Below are positions 52,322-61,142 of a stretch of 64,000 nt of DNA, piece by piece (the stretch's first letter is position 1; every line of letters starts with the position of its first letter). The DNA is taken from contig CAMTMC010000008.1 in assembly GCA_947073515.1 (NCBI GenBank), positions 1 through 64,000 on the forward strand, given 5' to 3'. A program made the translations under genes and the position numbers. The notes under the pieces were generated by a model that saw nothing but the letters and a program-made list of their open reading frames with translations, had not been told where the DNA came from and did no database searches. The DNA comes from an uncultured bacterium. Lineage in GTDB: Bacteria > Bacillota > Clostridia > Oscillospirales > Oscillospiraceae.

Positions 52322-52445
52322 ATTCAAATTTATCTTTCAAATCCTCTTAAAATCCTGATACATCAAGGTTTCCACTGATTGAATGTTCAAGCCTTATGTA
52401 ATTTCCCTTGTTTTTGCCCTTGCAGGCCGAAACAAGGGAAACTTT

Positions 52446-53744
52446 TTACTCCCCGCAGACTACCTTATCCAGCAGTCGGGCGGAGGTACGCTTGGCCTCC
52501 CTCGTGGCGTGGGCGTAAATGTTCATCGTGGTACTGACGTCGGCGTGTCCCAGCAGCTCCTGTACGTCCTTGGGCGCCGCCCCGTTAGACAGCAGATTGC
52601 TCGTGAACGTGTGTCTGAGCATATGGAAATGAAAATCCTCCAGCCCCGGAACTTTCTTCTTCGCCTGACGGCACATGATACCCACCGTCCCCGGCGTTTC
52701 AATGGCCCCGTCAGGACGGAGACAGACAAAGGACAGCTCCCTATACCCCTCCGGCACGCCTGCCGTCCTGGGCAGGGTGTAGACCTCATAATAGGCCCGG
52801 TCTTTCTCCCTGACCTCGGTGCAGTAGTTCAGGCTGTAAAGCTCCCCATAGCGCAGGCGGTTCCCGATCTGCTCCTTTTTGGCCCTCCGCAGGATCGCCG
52901 CCAGCGTGTCGCAGAAGTCCACGGTTCGGACTTTCTTCCGCTTGGTGGCCCCGATCTCCGTCTTGTGCCTCGCCCCGTTATAGCGGATGCTCCGCCGCAC
53001 CGTGAGGTACTGTTCGTCCAGGTTGACGTCCTGCCAGGTGAGGGCGCAGACCTCGCCAATGCGAAGCCCGGTGTAGTAGGCAATCTGAATGGGCAGCAGG
53101 GCCGGGTTGTCTTTCTTTTTCAGAAAGTCCTCCAACGCCCGGAACTGTTCATGGGTGAGGGTGGGCACAGCAGGGGCGTCCCCGTCCTCCTGGGAGAACA
53201 GCTCGTATTCCTCTTTCTTCCCCCGCCAGACCACATACTGCATGGGGTTGAAGCTGATGAGCCGCTTGGGGAACACCGCAAAGCGGAACGCCCCTTGCAG
53301 AACTGCCGAATACTGCCGTAAGTACCCTTTGCTGAGCGCCTTTGCCGCTGTGCTGTCTGGGTTTGTCCCGCCGAAGCTGAGAAGGTCGATGTAGGCTTGC
53401 AGATGGTCGGGGGTGACGCTTTTCAGCTTGCGGTTGCCGATGGGGTGCCGCTTGATACGGTTGACCGTTCCCTGATAGGCCATTACGGTGCCGTTGCTGA
53501 GATTTCCAGGCTTCAATTCTTCCTCTACCCACATATCCAACAGTTGGCCCACGGTGGCGTTCTCAGACTTTGTCACGAACTTTTTCGCCTCGTAATCCTC
53601 CATCGCCTTGCGGAGCAGGGCCTCCGTTTCGGACTTGCTCTCCGTCCCGGCGAACTCCTGCTGTACCTGCCGCCCGCTCTCGTCCTCCACATAGAAACGG
53701 TAGTACCACTTTTTGCCCTTTTTGCGTACAGAACCTTTTGCCAT
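52446..53744 (-). CDS. int: Tyrosine-type site-specific integrase
   Basis: [60 protein letters not shown] catalytic motifs. Confidence 0.95.
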
Positions 53745-53810
53745 AGATAAAATACTCCTTTCTATCCGTGGCAATCGGGCCTGTGACGTATGATGTGCGC
53801 TGTTATGTTG

Positions 53811-54494
53811 TCAAGGTGCCACGGAATCGTTGGCGGCGTTCAGCCGCACCTGAGCGTCATGCAGGATGTTATACAGGTAAACTGTATCAACCCTGGTACG
53901 CCCTTTGTCGAAGATATGTAGCAGCCCATCCAGGAACCGCTTCATATCCTCAATAGGAGCTTCCATCTCCCGGCGATAGACCGGCACGATGATGTCGTCA
54001 ACGTGGATGGTGTACTGCTGGATGGATTTTTTGAGGGCTTCATCTTCGGCCAGCCGGTCGATCTCGTTCAGCGTCCTGCCGTAGTGCTGGGCGGTGATGG
54101 AGAACAGGTCGATCAGCAAGCACAGCGTAGACGTAAGGAACCGCTGCTGAATTTCCGGCTGTACCGTCTTAGCCACAGCGTCCAAGAAACTGTTCAGATG
54201 GTCTAAAACCTCGCCCTCGCAAATGGTTCGGCCATCCTCGTCTTTGATTTCCTTTTCCTCAGACAGACCCGCGAGCCATTCCGGGGTGGTTTGCAGGGCG
54301 TCCGCCAAACCGTTGATAATCATTCTACGGTTGGGATTGACCCCATCCGTTTCGTACCGCTGGATGGTGGACTTGTTGACCCCCACCCGCCGCCCAAGCT
54401 CCGGCATGGAGATACCGATCTCGTTTCTGCGCTCTTTGATACGTTTACCGACATCTTTTGGAGTAAGCATTTCTGCGTTGTCCAAGAAGTTCAC
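53811..54494 (-). CDS. XRE-family transcriptional regulator
   Basis: GKRIKERRNEIGISMPELGRRVGVNKSTIQRYETDGVNPNRRMIINGLADALQTTPEWL. Confidence 0.9.
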   Translation of the reverse strand: MNFLDNAEMLTPKDVGKRIKERRNEIGISMPELGRRVGVNKSTIQRYETDGVNPNRRMIINGLADALQTTPEWLAGLSEEKEIKDEDGRTICEGEVLDHLNSFLDAVAKTVQPEIQQRFLTSTLCLLIDLFSITAQHYGRTLNEIDRLAEDEALKKSIQQYTIHVDDIIVPVYRREMEAPIEDMKRFLDGLLHIFDKGRTRVDTVYLYNILHDAQVRLNAANDSVAP

Positions 54495-54667
54495 CTCCTA
54501 TCGAGTATGAGTATAACACAGTCAGATCTGAACTGCAACCCTATTTTTCATATATTTTCAAAAATATTTTTTGAAACGCCTTAAAACGAGTTGACAAACA
54601 GCGGCAGTTTAAGTATAATAACGGTGTTGCAGTTGCAAAACAAGTGCAATAGAAGGAGGCGTGCAGA

Positions 54668-54883
54668 ATGAACGCAGTTAAAATGGGGCTGACCATCGAG
54701 GAAGCCGCCGAGTGTACGGGCATTGGGCGGAACACCATGCGGAAGCTGGTGGACTGGGGCAAGCTGCCGGTGCTGAAAGTGGGCCGCAAGGCCATCATCC
54801 GCCGGGACACGCTGGAGCGGTTCATGGCCGTGAACCAGGGGCGGAACCTGCTCCGGGAGGGTGACGTCCGCAGGGTCGAGTGA
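54668..54883 (+). CDS. Excisionase-type (MerR-like helix-turn-helix) DNA-binding protein
   Basis: MGLTIEEAAECTGIGRNTMRKLVDWGKLPVLKVGRKAIIRRDTLERFM. Confidence 0.88.
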   Translation: MNAVKMGLTIEEAAECTGIGRNTMRKLVDWGKLPVLKVGRKAIIRRDTLERFMAVNQGRNLLREGDVRRVE

Positions 54884-54984
54884 ACTTCCTCCAAAAATTC
54901 ACCGGCTGAAAAGGACAGCCGAGGCAGCGGGGACGCACCCGCAAAATACATCGGGGCGGAAGTGGTACAGTCTTAGCAAGCAAC

Positions 54985-55004
54985 GTATTGTGATATCACA
55001 ATAC
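54985..55004. repeat. Perfect 20-bp palindrome, candidate part of oriT/relaxosome or operator site
   Basis: GTATTGTGATATCACAATAC, immediately upstream of MobC-like gene. Confidence 0.6.
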
Positions 55005-55027
55005 AGCTTGACAGGGGTTCCACCCCT

Positions 55028-55369
55028 ATGACCCCGGAGAAAGGAGAATCCATGCGAAGCAGAACCAACCAAATCATCATCCGCCTGTCTGACGAGGAGC
55101 TGGCCGACCTCAACGAAAAGGTCAGCAGGGTACGGGGTTCCCGTGAGCGGTTCATCCGGCAGTGTATCAGCGGCGCTGCCATCCGGGAGGCCCCCTCCGT
55201 TGACGTGCCGAAGCTGATCTATGAAGTCCGCAGGGTGGGGGCCAGTCTCAACCGTATCCTCATCGTTGCCAACGCCAAAGGCCTGCTGGAAGTGCCGGAA
55301 CTCCGCAGGGCGATGGAGCGGAACCGGGAATTAGAAGTACGTATCGTGGATGCCTACACGAAGGACTGA
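55028..55369 (+). CDS. MobC-like mobilisation (relaxosome accessory) protein
   Basis: RTNQIIIRLSDEELADLNEKVSRVRGSRERFIRQCISG...PKLIYEVRRVGASLNRILIVANAKG; alternative start at 55052. Confidence 0.8.
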   Translation: MTPEKGESMRSRTNQIIIRLSDEELADLNEKVSRVRGSRERFIRQCISGAAIREAPSVDVPKLIYEVRRVGASLNRILIVANAKGLLEVPELRRAMERNRELEVRIVDAYTKD

Positions 55370-55434
55370 CTGCTTCTTATATACGCACCGCACAGCCATT
55401 AGGCCATGCGGTGCGTATATAAGAAGCAGTCAGT
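55365..55434. terminator. Very long perfect hairpin overlapping both convergent stop regions
   Basis: ACTGACTGCTTCTTATATACGCACCGCA - 14 nt - TGCGGTGCGTATATAAGAAGCAGTCAGT; 28-bp perfect stem. Confidence 0.8.
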
Positions 55435-56107
55435 TTTCTTCGTCATAAGGAAGGATTAACCAATCCCCTGTTTCTGTAACGCGATAATACTTACTATTTT
55501 CTGTATCAACTTTTATAACTGGGATTATACCGCTGTCCAAAACAGTTCCATCAATATAATAGTGACTTGCCCCATCAAAATAAATATCATGGAATCTTGG
55601 ATTCCCGGATATTTCCGCTGTTCCTATATGTCCCGCGACGATAACCATCTTATCATAAAATCTTCCTGTTTGAGCTGGGTATTTTTCTGTGAATGTAAAA
55701 TCGTCCGTTCCCCATTCCCATAAATCCTCTGCTTCTTCGTCAATGCCGGCATGAACAAATATTGTATTACCCTCGACGTAATATCTTGGCAGGCCTTGCA
55801 TCCACGCTATATACAGATCTTCTTCCGCTTCGCGAGTATAATCATTTTCATCCCCAATTCCACCAATAGGCCATCGGCCATCGCATACCATGTCCTCGTG
55901 ATTTCCAATCAAAGCTATTACTTTATCGGTGCCATACTTATTTTGCAGATGCATGATTTTCTTAAGGACACCATAACTATCAGGGCCATGCACATAATCA
56001 CCCAAAAGGACAATCTTATTATCTCCAGATAGGTCTATCAGCGATAAAGCATATTCAAACGCGTCAAGGCACCCATGTATATCACTCATTGCGTATATGT
56101 ACCCCAT
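55430..56107 (-). CDS. Calcineurin-like metallophosphoesterase (PPP-type)
   Basis: MSDIHGCLDAF, LLGDYVHGPDS, LIGNHEDM motifs. Confidence 0.88.
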   Translation of the reverse strand: MGYIYAMSDIHGCLDAFEYALSLIDLSGDNKIVLLGDYVHGPDSYGVLKKIMHLQNKYGTDKVIALIGNHEDMVCDGRWPIGGIGDENDYTREAEEDLYIAWMQGLPRYYVEGNTIFVHAGIDEEAEDLWEWGTDDFTFTEKYPAQTGRFYDKMVIVAGHIGTAEISGNPRFHDIYFDGASHYYIDGTVLDSGIIPVIKVDTENSKYYRVTETGDWLILPYDEEN

Positions 56108-56125
56108 ATTATATTCTTCACTCCC

Positions 56126-58225
56126 TCAACTGGAAAATCCAATAGGTCTTATCTGTTCCTTATCATACTGCTTAACGATATTTACATCCAAATCAACTTC
56201 CTGAAGCTCAAATAGCTTTTCTCGACCGATTTCTTCTTCCGCCGACTCTGAAATTCTGGTCGCCTGGCGGTTTACAGCTTGCTCGAACAGATTACGAACG
56301 AATCTACCGTTTCCAAATTCGTTTCGAGTACATACTTGCTTAAAAATTTGCTGTGCCTTGGCTTTTGCCTGTGACGTCATCACATACTGCTTATCCAGGA
56401 GCATTTTCTCTAATATTCCCATCAATTCATCTGAACCATAATCAGGAAAGTCAACGTGAAACGCTATTCTGCTTCGCAATCCCTCGTTTTTAGCAAGGAA
56501 TTCTTTCATCTTTCCAGGGTAACCAGCAAAGATAACAATAACATCTCCGCGCTTATTCTCCATTTCCTGGACAATGGTGTTGATTGCTTCGTCACCGTAG
56601 AGCCCGCCTCTATCCTCGACAAGCGAATACGCCTCGTCTATGAATAAAATTCCACCTTGAGCCTGACTGAATTTTTCCTTGACAATCTGTGCTGTCCACC
56701 CTACATATTTACCTACAAGGTCTGCCCTCCCACACTCGATAAAAGCTCCTGTTTTCAAGATGCCGTTCTCTTTGAGAATTTCTGCAAGCAGGCGAGCAAC
56801 CGTTGTTTTTGCTGTTCCAGGGTTACCTGTAAAAATCATATGTCTTGTAACGGCTTCCTTGGAATCATAATATTTGCTTCGTAGTTTCTGAATTTTGTAC
56901 GCAGCAATAATATCCTTTATTATTATTTTGATTTCTGACAGACCCACCATACTCTGCAACTCATCGAAAGCAGAGCCCTTTTTCTGAATGGCTTTGTCGA
57001 TTTGAAGAGTCTGGCTGTAGCTGTACGCGCTATAGACCCGATCTTTGAGACGAGCTTTCCTCCACTGGTTAAATTTGGTACGAACTTCTGTAGCTGAGTA
57101 AAACTTCCCCGGTTCAAAGACAACATCATTTTCAAAAAAACGTTGTATATTTGAGTCCACTAAAAGGGTTAAGAAATAAGCTAATGCCTGCCTTGCATTG
57201 CCAACGCCCTCTTGGATTTCGATGATATCCAGTTCTTCGTCAATTTTTCCTAAAAGCTGCTTGGCAAAACCCGGATGACTTGAATTCTCAACGAAAAAGA
57301 ACAGAATATTCCCGGAGAATTCTTTGATGTACTCTGCCAGCATATCGGATATCTGATGATACTGTGAGGCATACTCCTGCTCTGTCGCAACGTCTCCATT
57401 TAAAACAATTTCGACTACGGAATTTTGAGAGCACTTGAATAGTTTAGAAATATTGTCTTTGTCCCATCGTTTATCCTCAATAGCATCTATCTTTGTAATC
57501 CGGCGGCTCAGTAGTCTTTTGTTCAGATAGAGACAGTTTACTAAAAAGTCTATCATCTCATCGGCAATAATATCCGCCTTGACCGATAACTTGTAGTGTA
57601 CCGGAATGCCGAAAAAGAGCTTCTTTGAGTGCTTTCCACAGAAAATCCGATCTAATTCCTGCATCATAGAGCTGTCAGGCAATAGTTTTTTTGCGGCCGC
57701 TTTTGCTGATGCCTTATTTGTCACGGTGGACTCATAGGCCAAACGGTCTGAGACTTTATAACCATAATCATATTTTGTAAAATCTGTAAAAAACTGCTTA
57801 GTACACGCTTCCCTTACCCGTGTGTCATACATCTCATGGCGCTGTATCGCACGGTTGAAGTCGGTCACGGTGATTTCTTGGATCAGGGCCAATGTTATGT
57901 CCGTCTGGATGGGGAGGCGTTGCCAAGCCTGCTGAATATCAGTTTCAACTTCAATCGTGCCCTTTTCAGCACCCGATGGCGTATACGCCACATATGCGAG
58001 AATCGTCGATGGGGTGCTAATTTCTGCAATCTGCATCAAAAATGATTGCTGCTCCTCAAAGATATCCAAAAGGATGGTATTCAGGCGCTCAAGGCAGCTT
58101 GTCCGCCTTTTGAATACACTTCCTTCTTGCTCGTCGTCTTTAAAAACAGGAGAAGAAGAAACTACCTCGATATGATATATTATCACGTTAAGGAGCCCCC
58201 TTTTCTGCTGAAATCTGCTTACCAA
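56126..58225 (-). CDS. AAA+ ATPase, C-terminal SpoVK/CbbX-like domain with about 430-aa unassigned N-terminus
   Basis: Walker A GNPGTAKTT, Walker B GGILFIDEAYSL, FAGYPGKMKEFLAKNEGLRSRI. Confidence 0.88.
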   Translation of the reverse strand: MVSRFQQKRGLLNVIIYHIEVVSSSPVFKDDEQEGSVFKRRTSCLERLNTILLDIFEEQQSFLMQIAEISTPSTILAYVAYTPSGAEKGTIEVETDIQQAWQRLPIQTDITLALIQEITVTDFNRAIQRHEMYDTRVREACTKQFFTDFTKYDYGYKVSDRLAYESTVTNKASAKAAAKKLLPDSSMMQELDRIFCGKHSKKLFFGIPVHYKLSVKADIIADEMIDFLVNCLYLNKRLLSRRITKIDAIEDKRWDKDNISKLFKCSQNSVVEIVLNGDVATEQEYASQYHQISDMLAEYIKEFSGNILFFFVENSSHPGFAKQLLGKIDEELDIIEIQEGVGNARQALAYFLTLLVDSNIQRFFENDVVFEPGKFYSATEVRTKFNQWRKARLKDRVYSAYSYSQTLQIDKAIQKKGSAFDELQSMVGLSEIKIIIKDIIAAYKIQKLRSKYYDSKEAVTRHMIFTGNPGTAKTTVARLLAEILKENGILKTGAFIECGRADLVGKYVGWTAQIVKEKFSQAQGGILFIDEAYSLVEDRGGLYGDEAINTIVQEMENKRGDVIVIFAGYPGKMKEFLAKNEGLRSRIAFHVDFPDYGSDELMGILEKMLLDKQYVMTSQAKAKAQQIFKQVCTRNEFGNGRFVRNLFEQAVNRQATRISESAEEEIGREKLFELQEVDLDVNIVKQYDKEQIRPIGFSS

Positions 58226-58782
58226 AGGCCAAAATCTTTGTTATCCACGTATCCATCTTTTCTGAGCTGCTGAAGGTACAGCAGCGCGGTATTACAATCC
58301 CATATGCCACCCGCCTGCATGACAAGTGGGATATGCAAATCATAAAAATGCGCCAATGGAACATCAAAGAGCTGTGTGGCGATTTCTTCTGGATCGCTTT
58401 CAAGCATAGCTTCTTTAAAAATGAACTCGTAAGCTAAGTCCAAATTCTTTATATCGACCCAGAATCTGCCTAACGCTGACCCCCTGTAAAGCTCCCGGTT
58501 GGCCTCGTTGACAAGACCAAGAAAGTGCCCTGCGGTCTGCTCCGTTAAGATGCGCGGACTAGGGAAGAGGAGGGCCCGGACGGCATTTTCCTCGCACTGG
58601 ATGGACAGCTGGAGCGGAAGGGGCGGAGCCACGGGACTGTCCAGCTCGCTGAACAGGTGGAATCGCTCCCGTGGCGCGGCCAGGGAGATAATCTTTGGGG
58701 TGGAGCCCATCACTTGCAAGCCCAGCTCCGCGGATCTGCGCCTGACGATCTTCTCCAGCGTGTCAAGATTTTTCTCTTTCAT
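58219..58782 (-). CDS. Hypothetical protein
   Basis: MKEKNLDTLEKIVRRRSAELGL...; 7-nt overlap with the AAA+ gene. Confidence 0.65.
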   Translation of the reverse strand: MKEKNLDTLEKIVRRRSAELGLQVMGSTPKIISLAAPRERFHLFSELDSPVAPPLPLQLSIQCEENAVRALLFPSPRILTEQTAGHFLGLVNEANRELYRGSALGRFWVDIKNLDLAYEFIFKEAMLESDPEEIATQLFDVPLAHFYDLHIPLVMQAGGIWDCNTALLYLQQLRKDGYVDNKDFGLW

Positions 58783-58801
58783 GGGACGGCCTCCCTTCCC
58801 G

Positions 58802-59506
58802 TTAGGCTGTCCGCAGCGCAAGCAACTCCGCTCGCCGCCGCAGAATTGCAATGTAGTTGTCCAAGAGTTGGTCGAGCTGGATGTCTTTGGGGCTGTGCCT
58901 GCATGGGCTGCCAGTCCCAGCGAGGTCGAGGATGTTCCTCTGTTCAATAGTTTCAGCAGCGAAGAAAGGCTCCAAGTTCTCCTTGTGCAGCCAACTTTGC
59001 AGGGCTTCTTCATCCTGGGCATACGAAAACAAATCGTACAGGAAGTGAGGCATATAGTCGTAGTAAGGCTTGCCTCCCCGGAGAGTGTTCCAGCTGCGCT
59101 TGGGCAGCAGCATGACATTGAACCGCTGCTGGCCAAGCGCAAAAAGGGTGGATAGCTTCCGCGTGAGTTCCGAGTCCGGAAGGAAGTTGTCAATGCGTTC
59201 GATCATGTTGTTCAGGAAGCCTGTGTGATCCTTGAGCCCAATTCCTTTGGGCTTCAGTTCCGCGTAATCGAGCTCTCTCCACAGCTGCCAAGCCGGCGTG
59301 TCGAAGCAATTCAGCGTATATCGCAAGGGTAGCCAAAGCGATATTATTGTGTCTGCCTGGAGATTGCCTCCACTAAGGACGCAGTCAAGATCGTGAGTAC
59401 GACGGTATTCGTCGTCTCTCTTCCCGGCGTAATCGCGCCAATATTTTAGCTTCGCAATGATTGGCTCTAAGAAAGTAGCCCTTTCCCCAATATAATGGTA
59501 AGCCAT
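58802..59506 (-). CDS. Hypothetical protein
   Basis: 234-aa ORF MAYHYIGERATFLEPIIAKLKYWRDYAGKRDDEYRRTHDLDCV...; same strand and tight spacing in operon. Confidence 0.65.
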   Translation of the reverse strand: MAYHYIGERATFLEPIIAKLKYWRDYAGKRDDEYRRTHDLDCVLSGGNLQADTIISLWLPLRYTLNCFDTPAWQLWRELDYAELKPKGIGLKDHTGFLNNMIERIDNFLPDSELTRKLSTLFALGQQRFNVMLLPKRSWNTLRGGKPYYDYMPHFLYDLFSYAQDEEALQSWLHKENLEPFFAAETIEQRNILDLAGTGSPCRHSPKDIQLDQLLDNYIAILRRRAELLALRTA

Positions 59507-59542
59507 TTTGTAAATTCCCTTATTATCTCAGATTGAATAGGT

Positions 59543-59905
59543 TCAACTTATCCGTTTATAAATGGTGATCTTCCCCTTTGTAGCTGAAACAACCTTAAAG
59601 CGAGGATCGCTACGAATCTTAGCGGACAGCTGCTTGGCCATAATCATTTTTTCGCTCCTAGAGAGAGAAGGCCACTCCTTATCCAGCAACGCTGAAACAA
59701 TGAACTGCCTATCTGGCTTAACCTCTTCTAAGACCTGAAACATCTTGGATATAAGTTCGTTGATTGGAAAGGTATTTTTTTTGCTGTCCAGAGAAAGCAT
59801 TACGCAATAATGCTGATAAGCAGAAAGGGAAAAACCCAATTTTTGCGCCTCTCGAGAAATAAGTTTGCAATCTTCGTCCGAATAGTTACTGTATATGCGT
59901 TTCAT
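59543..59905 (-). CDS. Hypothetical small protein with possible ribbon-helix-helix-like N-terminus
   Basis: MKRIYSNYSDEDCKLISREAQKLGFSLSAYQHYCVMLSL; first gene after the operon promoter. Confidence 0.6.
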   Translation of the reverse strand: MKRIYSNYSDEDCKLISREAQKLGFSLSAYQHYCVMLSLDSKKNTFPINELISKMFQVLEEVKPDRQFIVSALLDKEWPSLSRSEKMIMAKQLSAKIRSDPRFKVVSATKGKITIYKRIS

Positions 59906-59930
59906 GATAAACGGCCCCCTCATTTGAAAA

Positions 59931-59968
59931 AGTAGGTGCTACAATACCTTGACATTGTAGCACCTACT
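59931..59968 (-). promoter_or_regulatory. Candidate operator: perfect 15-bp inverted repeat overlapping the -10 box
   Basis: AGTAGGTGCTACAAT - accttgac - ATTGTAGCACCTACT. Confidence 0.75.
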
Positions 59969-59982
59969 ATGTGACCTGTCAA
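59954..59982 (-). promoter_or_regulatory. Consensus promoter of the five-gene cargo operon
   Basis: Minus strand TTGACA - 17 bp - TACAAT. Confidence 0.8.
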
Positions 59983-60025
59983 TACTCTTCTATGTGAAAA
60001 ACTTTTTGCATTTACGAAATGCTGT

Positions 60026-60151
60026 TTATCCTCGCTCGCATACGCCGACAGGCTGTCCTTCTTCAGAGGATACATTCAGGCACGGGAGATAGTAGTCGCC
60101 AATCAATTCATAACACAAACCATTATTCTTGTCAAAAATGTACTTGTCCAT
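60026..60151 (-). pseudogene. Truncated TnpV-like transposon protein (41 codons)
   Basis: Minus strand MDKYIFDKNNGLCYELIGDYYLPCLNVSSEEGQPVGVCERG*, recalled match to TnpV N-terminus; below the ORF-track length cut-off. Confidence 0.6.
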
Positions 60152-60456
60152 CTTGAAATCCTCCGCTATCATAATATTCGCACATACGTCTCAGTTCTCC
60201 GATTGCCACACGTTGTTATATCCTGTTGCGTGATTTTCTTGCCCTTGCTTTTGCCCTTATGGGCAACCAGGGTAAGGGTAAACTTGTGTGAAACCGAATA
60301 AAGGGATAAGGCGAACACACTGCGAAAAATCCATTGTTTTCAAGGCTTTCGGAGGATTTTATTGAAAACCTACGGTGAGCAATGACCGCTCATAAAATCG
60401 TAGTATTCAAATTCCTTTTTATCACACACCCCCACAATCTCATCACAAAAACAAAA

Positions 60457-60511
60457 AGGAATGACCCCTAACTGCCCGTTTCGTAATCCGTTGCAGCTAG
60501 GGGTCATTCCT
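60457..60511. repeat. Long inverted repeat, 14-bp perfect arms, 27-nt loop
   Basis: AGGAATGACCCCTA ... TAGGGGTCATTCCT. Confidence 0.7.
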
Positions 60512-61142
60512 GTTCATTCTTGTTATCTAACATCATTTTGGCTACCTCCGTTTCTACAAGATGCGTTTCGCCGCCTTCCCCGTCCAGCAACCTCTGAACC
60601 AATTCCTCGACTATCTCTTTTGTGGCCGTATTTACGGCTGTATATCCTCATACGTGAGGCCCTTTGAGTCGGATTGTTCGGTTTGCTTTCCGGTTGTGCC
60701 GCTGCACGCTCCCTGAATGCCGAGCCTGCTCAAGCTTCAAAATGAGATTCGCCGGGACTTCCATCACCACCGCTTGGGACCGACCTTCGCTCCGCCTGGC
60801 CGCCTCCGCGGCCCCGCTTCACACCACTCGCTTTGCTGTGATCTCCCACCGGGCTCTCCCTTTTCCCGATTTTCCCTGGCCTGTGGTTTTTGCCCTTCCT
60901 GACCTGGTCTTGGACTGTCTGATCCTTTTACCTCGCTTCTCGGCTTCAGGTGCTGGGGTATTTAGCTGTACATTGGACTCACCCTTTCCTTGGTTATACT
61001 TTACCACACTAGTACACTCTTGTCAAGAAGTTTTTCTTCGGTTTTCTACACAAATCATTTCCCGCTGTTTTAGACGCTTTGCATAAACCGGCGGGAGAAC
61101 TTGCAAAAACGCCCCTGGAGCGCTGCTCCAGGGGCGGCCTGT

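Follow-up and report, generated by a model that had tools for sequence, protein, structure and literature searches.

Five genes, designated here g1 to g5, lie on the minus strand at positions 59905 to 55430 of a stretch of DNA from an uncultured bacterium of the Oscillospiraceae, and they raise the question of what an AAA+ ATPase and a metallophosphoesterase (MPE) may do together on a mobile element. The stretch, called the window below, comprises positions 1 to 64,000 of contig CAMTMC010000008.1 (assembly GCA_947073515.1). The preliminary description of this DNA had taken the genes for an operon of unknown function and the best candidate for an undescribed system. The analyses reported here indicate that the operon, from a Clostridia genome of the gut, is outside every named system tested and probably represents a stress or anti-phage module that has escaped recognition. 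The reading towards which we lean, with slightly more doubt than confidence, is that of a chaperone-gated conflict module, probably directed against phages or mobile elements, on a small integrative element. The features of the operon are as follows.

59954-59982, minus strand: promoter TTGACA-17-TACAAT, consensus score 11/12, the highest in the region
59931-59968: operator-like dyad AGTAGGTGCTACAAT-8-ATTGTAGCACCTACT, arms 100% complementary, covering the promoter -10
59543-59905, minus strand: g1, probable ribbon-helix-helix (RHH) N-terminus and DUF1413-like C-terminus, predicted autorepressor
58802-59506, minus strand: g2, 234 amino acids (aa), orphan; partner of g3 also in Mediterraneibacter massiliensis
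58219-58782, minus strand: g3, 187 aa, predicted YbjN/type III-secretion-chaperone-like (TY-chaperone) fold
56126-58186, minus strand: g4, 686 aa, tandem AAA+ protein
55430-56107, minus strand: g5, calcineurin-like (NinI/PPP-type) phosphoesterase
55365-55434: inverted repeat with 33-nt arms, separating the mobC stop from the g5 stop

The operon and its proteins

The same-strand organization and the single consensus promoter proposed earlier were borne out, with intergenic gaps of approximately 36, 19, 32 and 18 nt. The AAA+ gene had been described as overlapping its upstream neighbour by 7 nt, which corresponds to a TTG start at 58225. The homologues of g4 begin with M[IL][IFL]Y, matching the GTG at 58186, which is preceded by a GGGGG ribosome-binding sequence; therefore, the g3-g4 gap is 32 nt, and the TTG start is unlikely. 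The terminal hairpin is as strong as had been claimed (-70.7 kcal/mol, z -16.4), but it fits the operon direction less well: a T-rich tract (TTTTCTTC) lies beyond it only on the plus-strand side, and no T-tract follows it on the minus strand. Because of this position of the tract, the hairpin may suit the role of mobC terminator no worse than that of operon terminator, and possibly serves mainly mobC.

Profile searches placed the C-terminal AAA+ domain of g4 (D2, residues ~400-672, with Walker A K460 and Walker B D517-E518) closest to SpoVK and CbbX, in agreement with the preliminary description. D2 carries the signatures of the SpoVK/CbbX/EccA clade, namely G555-Y556 at sensor 1, an asparagine four residues ahead of the first arginine finger (N567/R571-R573) and the sensor-2 arginines R628/R631, all invariant or nearly so in 19 relatives. 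Scores fell far below the equivalog cut-offs for SpoVK (TIGR02881, 276 vs 423 bits), CbbX (TIGR02880, 240 vs 459 bits) and EccA (TIGR03922, 192 vs 467 bits). Unlike members of this clade, g4 has the Walker A sequence GNPGTAKTT and a GKYVGWTA motif, adds further N-terminal domains and stands among other operon partners.

The approximately 430 N-terminal residues previously left unassigned can now be divided into an alpha/beta N-domain and a second AAA+ domain. The AlphaFold2 model of g4, built from 19 sequences after one row from an annotated plasmid record was left out (predicted local distance difference test score, pLDDT, 76.5), contains an alpha/beta domain at residues 1-118, a five-stranded alpha/beta core at ~160-350 and then a canonical AAA+ domain. 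Comparison of this core with the protein's own D2 by hhalign gave an E-value of 4.8e-7 and a probability of 92.5. Foldseek matched g4 to tandem p97/Cdc48 D1-D2 proteins over ~590 columns, with low template-modelling (TM) scores of ~0.3 and uncertain relative domain placement, and returned CbbX as the top structural match of D2. The core has neither a P-loop nor a Walker B motif, and a conserved G[HI]PVHY occupies the strand from which a P-loop would start. On the model, it is read as a degenerate, dead AAA+ domain (D1) ahead of an intact D2, and with two AAA+ domains in one chain g4 has a tandem (type II) architecture.

The metallophosphoesterase assignment of g5 was confirmed by its match to PF00149 (2e-12) and by the metal ligands of the family (D-x-H, GD, GNH, H, GH), which alignment located at D9/H11, D37, N69/H70, VHAG and AGH. 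The match to PHROG 246, the NinI/PPP phosphatases, was stronger (1e-24). g5 departs from these phosphatases in being operonic with an AAA+ gene and in its phosphate-binding motif GDxVDRG, where GDYVDRG is replaced by GDYVHG; the MPE of locus L051 has GDYIHG. Weak similarity was seen to symmetrical diadenosine tetraphosphate (Ap4A) hydrolase and to a phage RNA-ligase/phosphatase family, and a sequence search of PDB gave no match at E 1e-3.

No family match at the sequence level was found for g3 in the library search. Its AlphaFold2 model (4 sequences, pLDDT 80.5) has the alpha-beta3-alpha-beta2-alpha order of TY-chaperones, and Foldseek returned DR_1245 (YbjN) at E 6e-4 with a TM-score of 0.57 on the target, followed by CesT, ExsC and SycE. 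The modelled fold of g3 is thus TY-chaperone-like, and the protein may bind peptides. GC content within g3 (58219-58782) falls from 60% in the 5' half to 45% in the 3' half, and stands at 42% in g4; this step suggests a recombination joint within the gene. The g2 protein had no match in Pfam, NCBIfam, PHROGs or PADLOC, and only chance-level matches in a PDB sequence search. A homologue of g2 adjoins g3 in L027 (E 1e-75), and a weaker one lies on a Paenibacillus plasmid (E 3e-8). Beside g3 in two genera stands a divergent gene of ~160-190 aa with no family match (L025:1141-1623 and L027:7561-8043, the latter on the minus strand).

The protein encoded by g1 matched no DUF1413 model itself, and no RHH model match was found for it in the libraries. 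A homologue in L044, 38% identical, matches DUF1413 (PF07205) at 1.3e-7, and g1 is probably a DUF1413-type protein with a predicted RHH fold. The operon promoter contains a perfect 15-bp dyad, and equivalent dyads, likewise placed over a TTGACA promoter, lie upstream of two g1 homologues: that of L044, whose gene belongs to an AAA+ operon, and that of L085, whose gene stands alone. The core common to the three lineages is GGTG[CT]TAC[AT]AT plus its complement, with 20-22 nt from GGTG to CACC. A 12-base half-site pattern of the window and L044 was absent from all other loci scanned, and a fourth, stand-alone homologue in L086 has a half-site only. These conserved operator-like dyads support DNA binding by g1. 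Because the dyad over the -10 is found again ahead of two distant g1 homologues, a predicted role for g1 as a dyad-binding autoregulator is well supported, and is the best-supported functional prediction for the operon. The stand-alone DUF1413-type homologues (L085:8818-9180 and L086:4830-5309) belong to large-genome Lachnospiraceae relatives, and the one in L086 adjoins a gene resembling a tetracycline-resistance ribosomal-protection gene.

Partner exchange and genomic context

Relatives of g4 are sparse, being present in 8 of 295 genomes of the order (that of the window included) and in 12 of 348 genomes of the family of Fusicatenibacter. In 20 AAA+ genomes, 159 PF00149 genes were located over ~52 Mb. 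In five of the 20 (the window, L016, L048, L049 and L051), such a gene lies no more than 1 kb from the AAA+ gene, against an expected 0.17, and in eight the distance is at most 4 kb. The binomial probabilities of this linkage are 5e-7 at 1 kb and 2e-8 at 4 kb, or 1.6e-5 and 4e-7 when the window is left out. A Selenomonas plasmid also carries the pair, with a degenerate MPE, and two further g4 relatives adjoin PD-(D/E)XK nucleases. The AAA+ proteins of L049 and L051 hardly differ, yet their MPEs are different and lie on opposite sides of the gene, and MPE-bearing AAA+ genes scatter over the AAA+ tree; because of these two observations, the data fit repeated acquisition of an MPE as a functional partner of the AAA+ protein. 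In one Fusicatenibacter genome (G798), 6 of 14 PF00149 genes lie on the contig with the AAA+ and g3 genes (C49).

Other partners recur with the AAA+ gene as well. g3 is found with it in L011 and L029, which are near-identical DNA of Fusicatenibacter type with the two genes ~6 kb apart. L025 and L028 are the same contig and hold an intact g3 along with short remains of the starts of AAA+ and MPE genes. In this decayed operon downstream of the intact g3 (L025:3063-3113), the AAA+ start MIFYRVT is fused to the MPE start IYAVSDIHGC. In L044, g1 shares an operon with the AAA+ gene, and the place of g2-g3 is taken by a PD-(D/E)XK nuclease together with a gene of 135 aa. The recurring linkages are pairs or triples (AAA-MPE, g3 with AAA and MPE, g2-g3 and g1 with AAA), and co-occurrence is patchy yet non-random. 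Conserved co-occurrence, proposed as a check on the operon, gave a mixed outcome: it was seen at this level, with an AAA-MPE probability of ~5e-7, but not for the set of five.

A scan of 84,980 species genomes for g3, by a short-motif search that was not exhaustive, found three loci. Viral contigs gave no match in close-relative scans with g2, g3 and the g4 N-terminus, nor in an alignment scan with g3; the corresponding scan with the g4 N-terminus gave one locus, L023, flanked by prophage genes. A weak g3 match in G568, set among unrelated ABC-transporter genes, was rejected as chance. An open reading frame (ORF) of 1158 aa in Fusicatenibacter (L029:595-4071, minus strand) contains the motif GGADFDGD, which recalls two-barrel RNA polymerases or RNA-dependent RNA polymerases.

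The 106 proteins near AAA+ relatives include 9 WYL, 6 DUF2779 and 3 AbiEi matches, counts that are descriptive. KptA, HAD_SAK_2, NADAR, RhuM and a NERD-helicase are also among these neighbours. The nucleases of L044 and L047 match PADLOC PDC-S26; a PDC-S02 protein is encoded in L044 as well. On the operon itself, PADLOC returned only weak AAA-core matches to IetA/TRIP13 and no named anti-phage system. None of the models in Pfam, NCBIfam, PHROGs and PADLOC gives a name to the five-gene set, and a literature search that covered few subscription papers found no description of it. Together with the AAA-MPE linkage above chance and the siting of AAA+ relatives in defence islands, this sustains the earlier suggestion that the module is undescribed.

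Three described systems combine some of these elements. MoxR-vWA ternary conflict systems join an AAA+ chaperone to exchangeable effectors, including calcineurin-type phosphoesterases (PMC7159879). The operon likewise has an AAA+ chaperone and a phosphoesterase, but it contains no MoxR ATPase, vWA or VMAP protein, its AAA+ protein belongs to another clade, and it has a TY-chaperone-like candidate co-chaperone. A MoxR ATPase and vWA pair occurs near some relatives only; in L013, L014 and L023 the AAA+ relatives lie near MoxR-like ATPase and DUF2201 vWA-like genes, another AAA+ chaperone pair. ARG-centric systems use TY-Chap chaperones with WYL regulators and phosphatases (PMC9503650), a logic shared by the operon and its relatives (WYL being near relatives of g4), whereas the operon has no ARG, Macro or Nudix protein and has the AAA+ protein at its centre. 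Type III-A CoCoNuT systems include, inside a defence operon, an AAA+ protein assigned to the SpoVK family (PMC11090510). The operon resembles them in its SpoVK-like AAA+ protein, but the CoCoNuT ATPase is described as p97/CDC48-like, and the operon has no McrBC/CoCoNuT, TerY-like vWA, kinase or PP2C genes.

The probable integrative element

The operon is real and compositionally foreign, with a GC content of 40-53% in the cargo vs 64-66% in flanking chromosomal genes. The element that carries it comprises the following additional features.

52391-60258: probable integrative element, ~7.8 kb, with an imperfect direct repeat resembling an att site at either end
52446-53774, minus strand: ORF, the element's tyrosine-type integrase; DNA identity 71-77% to matches from other genomes of the order
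53811-54494, minus strand: ORF, XRE-type regulator, homologue beside related integrases
54668-54883, plus strand: ORF, excisionase, homologue beside related integrases
55028-55369, plus strand: ORF, MobC-like gene

DNA matches to the integrase end in 14 other genomes of the order begin at window position 52402. An imperfect 31-nt direct repeat (52391-52421 and 60228-60258) fits attachment (att) sites, although a repeat of 77% identity is, taken alone, weak evidence for the ends. The match boundary, the repeats and the return of genus-conserved chromosome near 60446 support the view of the operon as integrative-element cargo that had been taken earlier. The TnpV remnant proposed beside it (~60450-60700) was ruled out: genus relatives share conserved intergenic DNA from a DUF2461 gene down to approximately window position 60446, at 75-78% identity, and the supposed remnant is intergenic chromosome DNA common to other genomes of the genus. 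No relaxase lies inside the ~7.8 kb element, though a MobC-like gene is present; L088, one of the 14 integrase-matching genomes, has a relaxase-like ORF and different downstream genes.

Proposed mechanism, competing readings and meaning

In the mechanism that we propose, g1 would bind the promoter dyad and hold the operon low until a signal relieves repression. g4 would form an ATP-driven ring, with D2 as the motor and the dead D1 and N-domain as a client platform, and the TY-chaperone-like g3 would hold or present a client, for which the neighbouring g2 protein is the likeliest candidate. Remodelling by g4 may then free or activate an effector, namely the g5 phosphoesterase, possibly together with g2. 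g5 would hydrolyse a phosphorylated nucleotide, an RNA end or a protein, and so limit the invader. Elsewhere among the relatives, the phosphoesterase may be replaced by a different effector, for instance a PD-(D/E)XK nuclease. What the genes are, the D1/D2 layout of g4, the fold of g3, the conservation of the operator and the non-random linkage of AAA and MPE genes come from sequence comparison or modelling. The steps that we infer are the assembly of g4 into a ring, the choice of g2 for its client, the control of g5 by g4, the substrate and an invader-triggered role in defence.

Several observations weigh against a conflict module of this kind. All five genes together were found nowhere else, an MPE is missing beside the majority of AAA+ relatives, and several relatives lie in ordinary chromosomal surroundings. 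g2-g3 occurs without the AAA+ gene in M. massiliensis; an AAA+ protein of the g4 family is absent from that genome altogether. The altered motif of g5 may mean reduced or changed catalysis, and the defence-neighbour counts are, as noted, descriptive.

The characterised members of the SpoVK/CbbX/EccA clade are all dedicated narrow-client chaperones that work without proteases (PMC10659427), and g4 could likewise act as an activase or assembly chaperone in ordinary physiology, serving one client (g2 or a host enzyme), with g5 a housekeeping-type phosphatase and the cargo a set of fitness or stress genes. The relatives in non-defence surroundings, such as L015, L017 and L046, are in line with this explanation, which we nevertheless consider unlikely in view of the patchy distribution (8/295 and 12/348 genomes), the mobile location, the changing partners and the WYL, AbiE and PDC neighbours.

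A response to RNA damage or nucleotide stress appears quite improbable. Here g5 would clean RNA 3' or 5' ends or degrade alarmone-like nucleotides after tRNA/RNA damage, and g4-g3 would free damaged complexes. KptA/Tpt1, the HAD_SAK_2 'RNA repair' HAD, NADAR and WYL near relatives (L049, L050 and L052) point in this direction, as does the weak likeness of g5 to Ap4A hydrolase and the phage RNA-ligase/phosphatase family; the window itself, however, has no ligase, KptA or HAD, and such neighbours occur only at a handful of loci in Lachnospiraceae whose AAA+ proteins belong to other clades. Least probable is that g2-g3 is an independent two-gene unit (chaperone and client, possibly toxin-antitoxin-like) recombined into an AAA-MPE operon with shared transcription and not one function, as the isolated pair in M. 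massiliensis, the GC fall inside g3 and the stand-alone g1 homologues would allow, since g3 accompanies the AAA+ gene in L011/L029 and lies with AAA and MPE remnants in L025.

Beyond the favoured conflict-module reading of this operon, we propose, more doubtfully, an undescribed, modular immune family of Clostridia and Negativicutes. At its centre would stand an AAA+ chaperone of tandem build, with a dead D1 and a live D2 of SpoVK/CbbX type. Acting through an adaptor of the TY-chaperone kind, it would gate interchangeable effectors, namely a phosphoesterase, a PD-(D/E)XK nuclease or possibly a member of the g2 family, with regulation by RHH-DUF1413 or WYL proteins. If the conflict-module reading is right, the range of AAA+-gated conflict systems would widen by a further AAA+ clade, whose known roles so far are mainly in enzyme activation and secretion. 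For DUF1413 proteins, autoregulation through a defined operator would become a role that can be tested, and the tandem AAA+ architecture, with partners exchanged in nature, would be open to assay.

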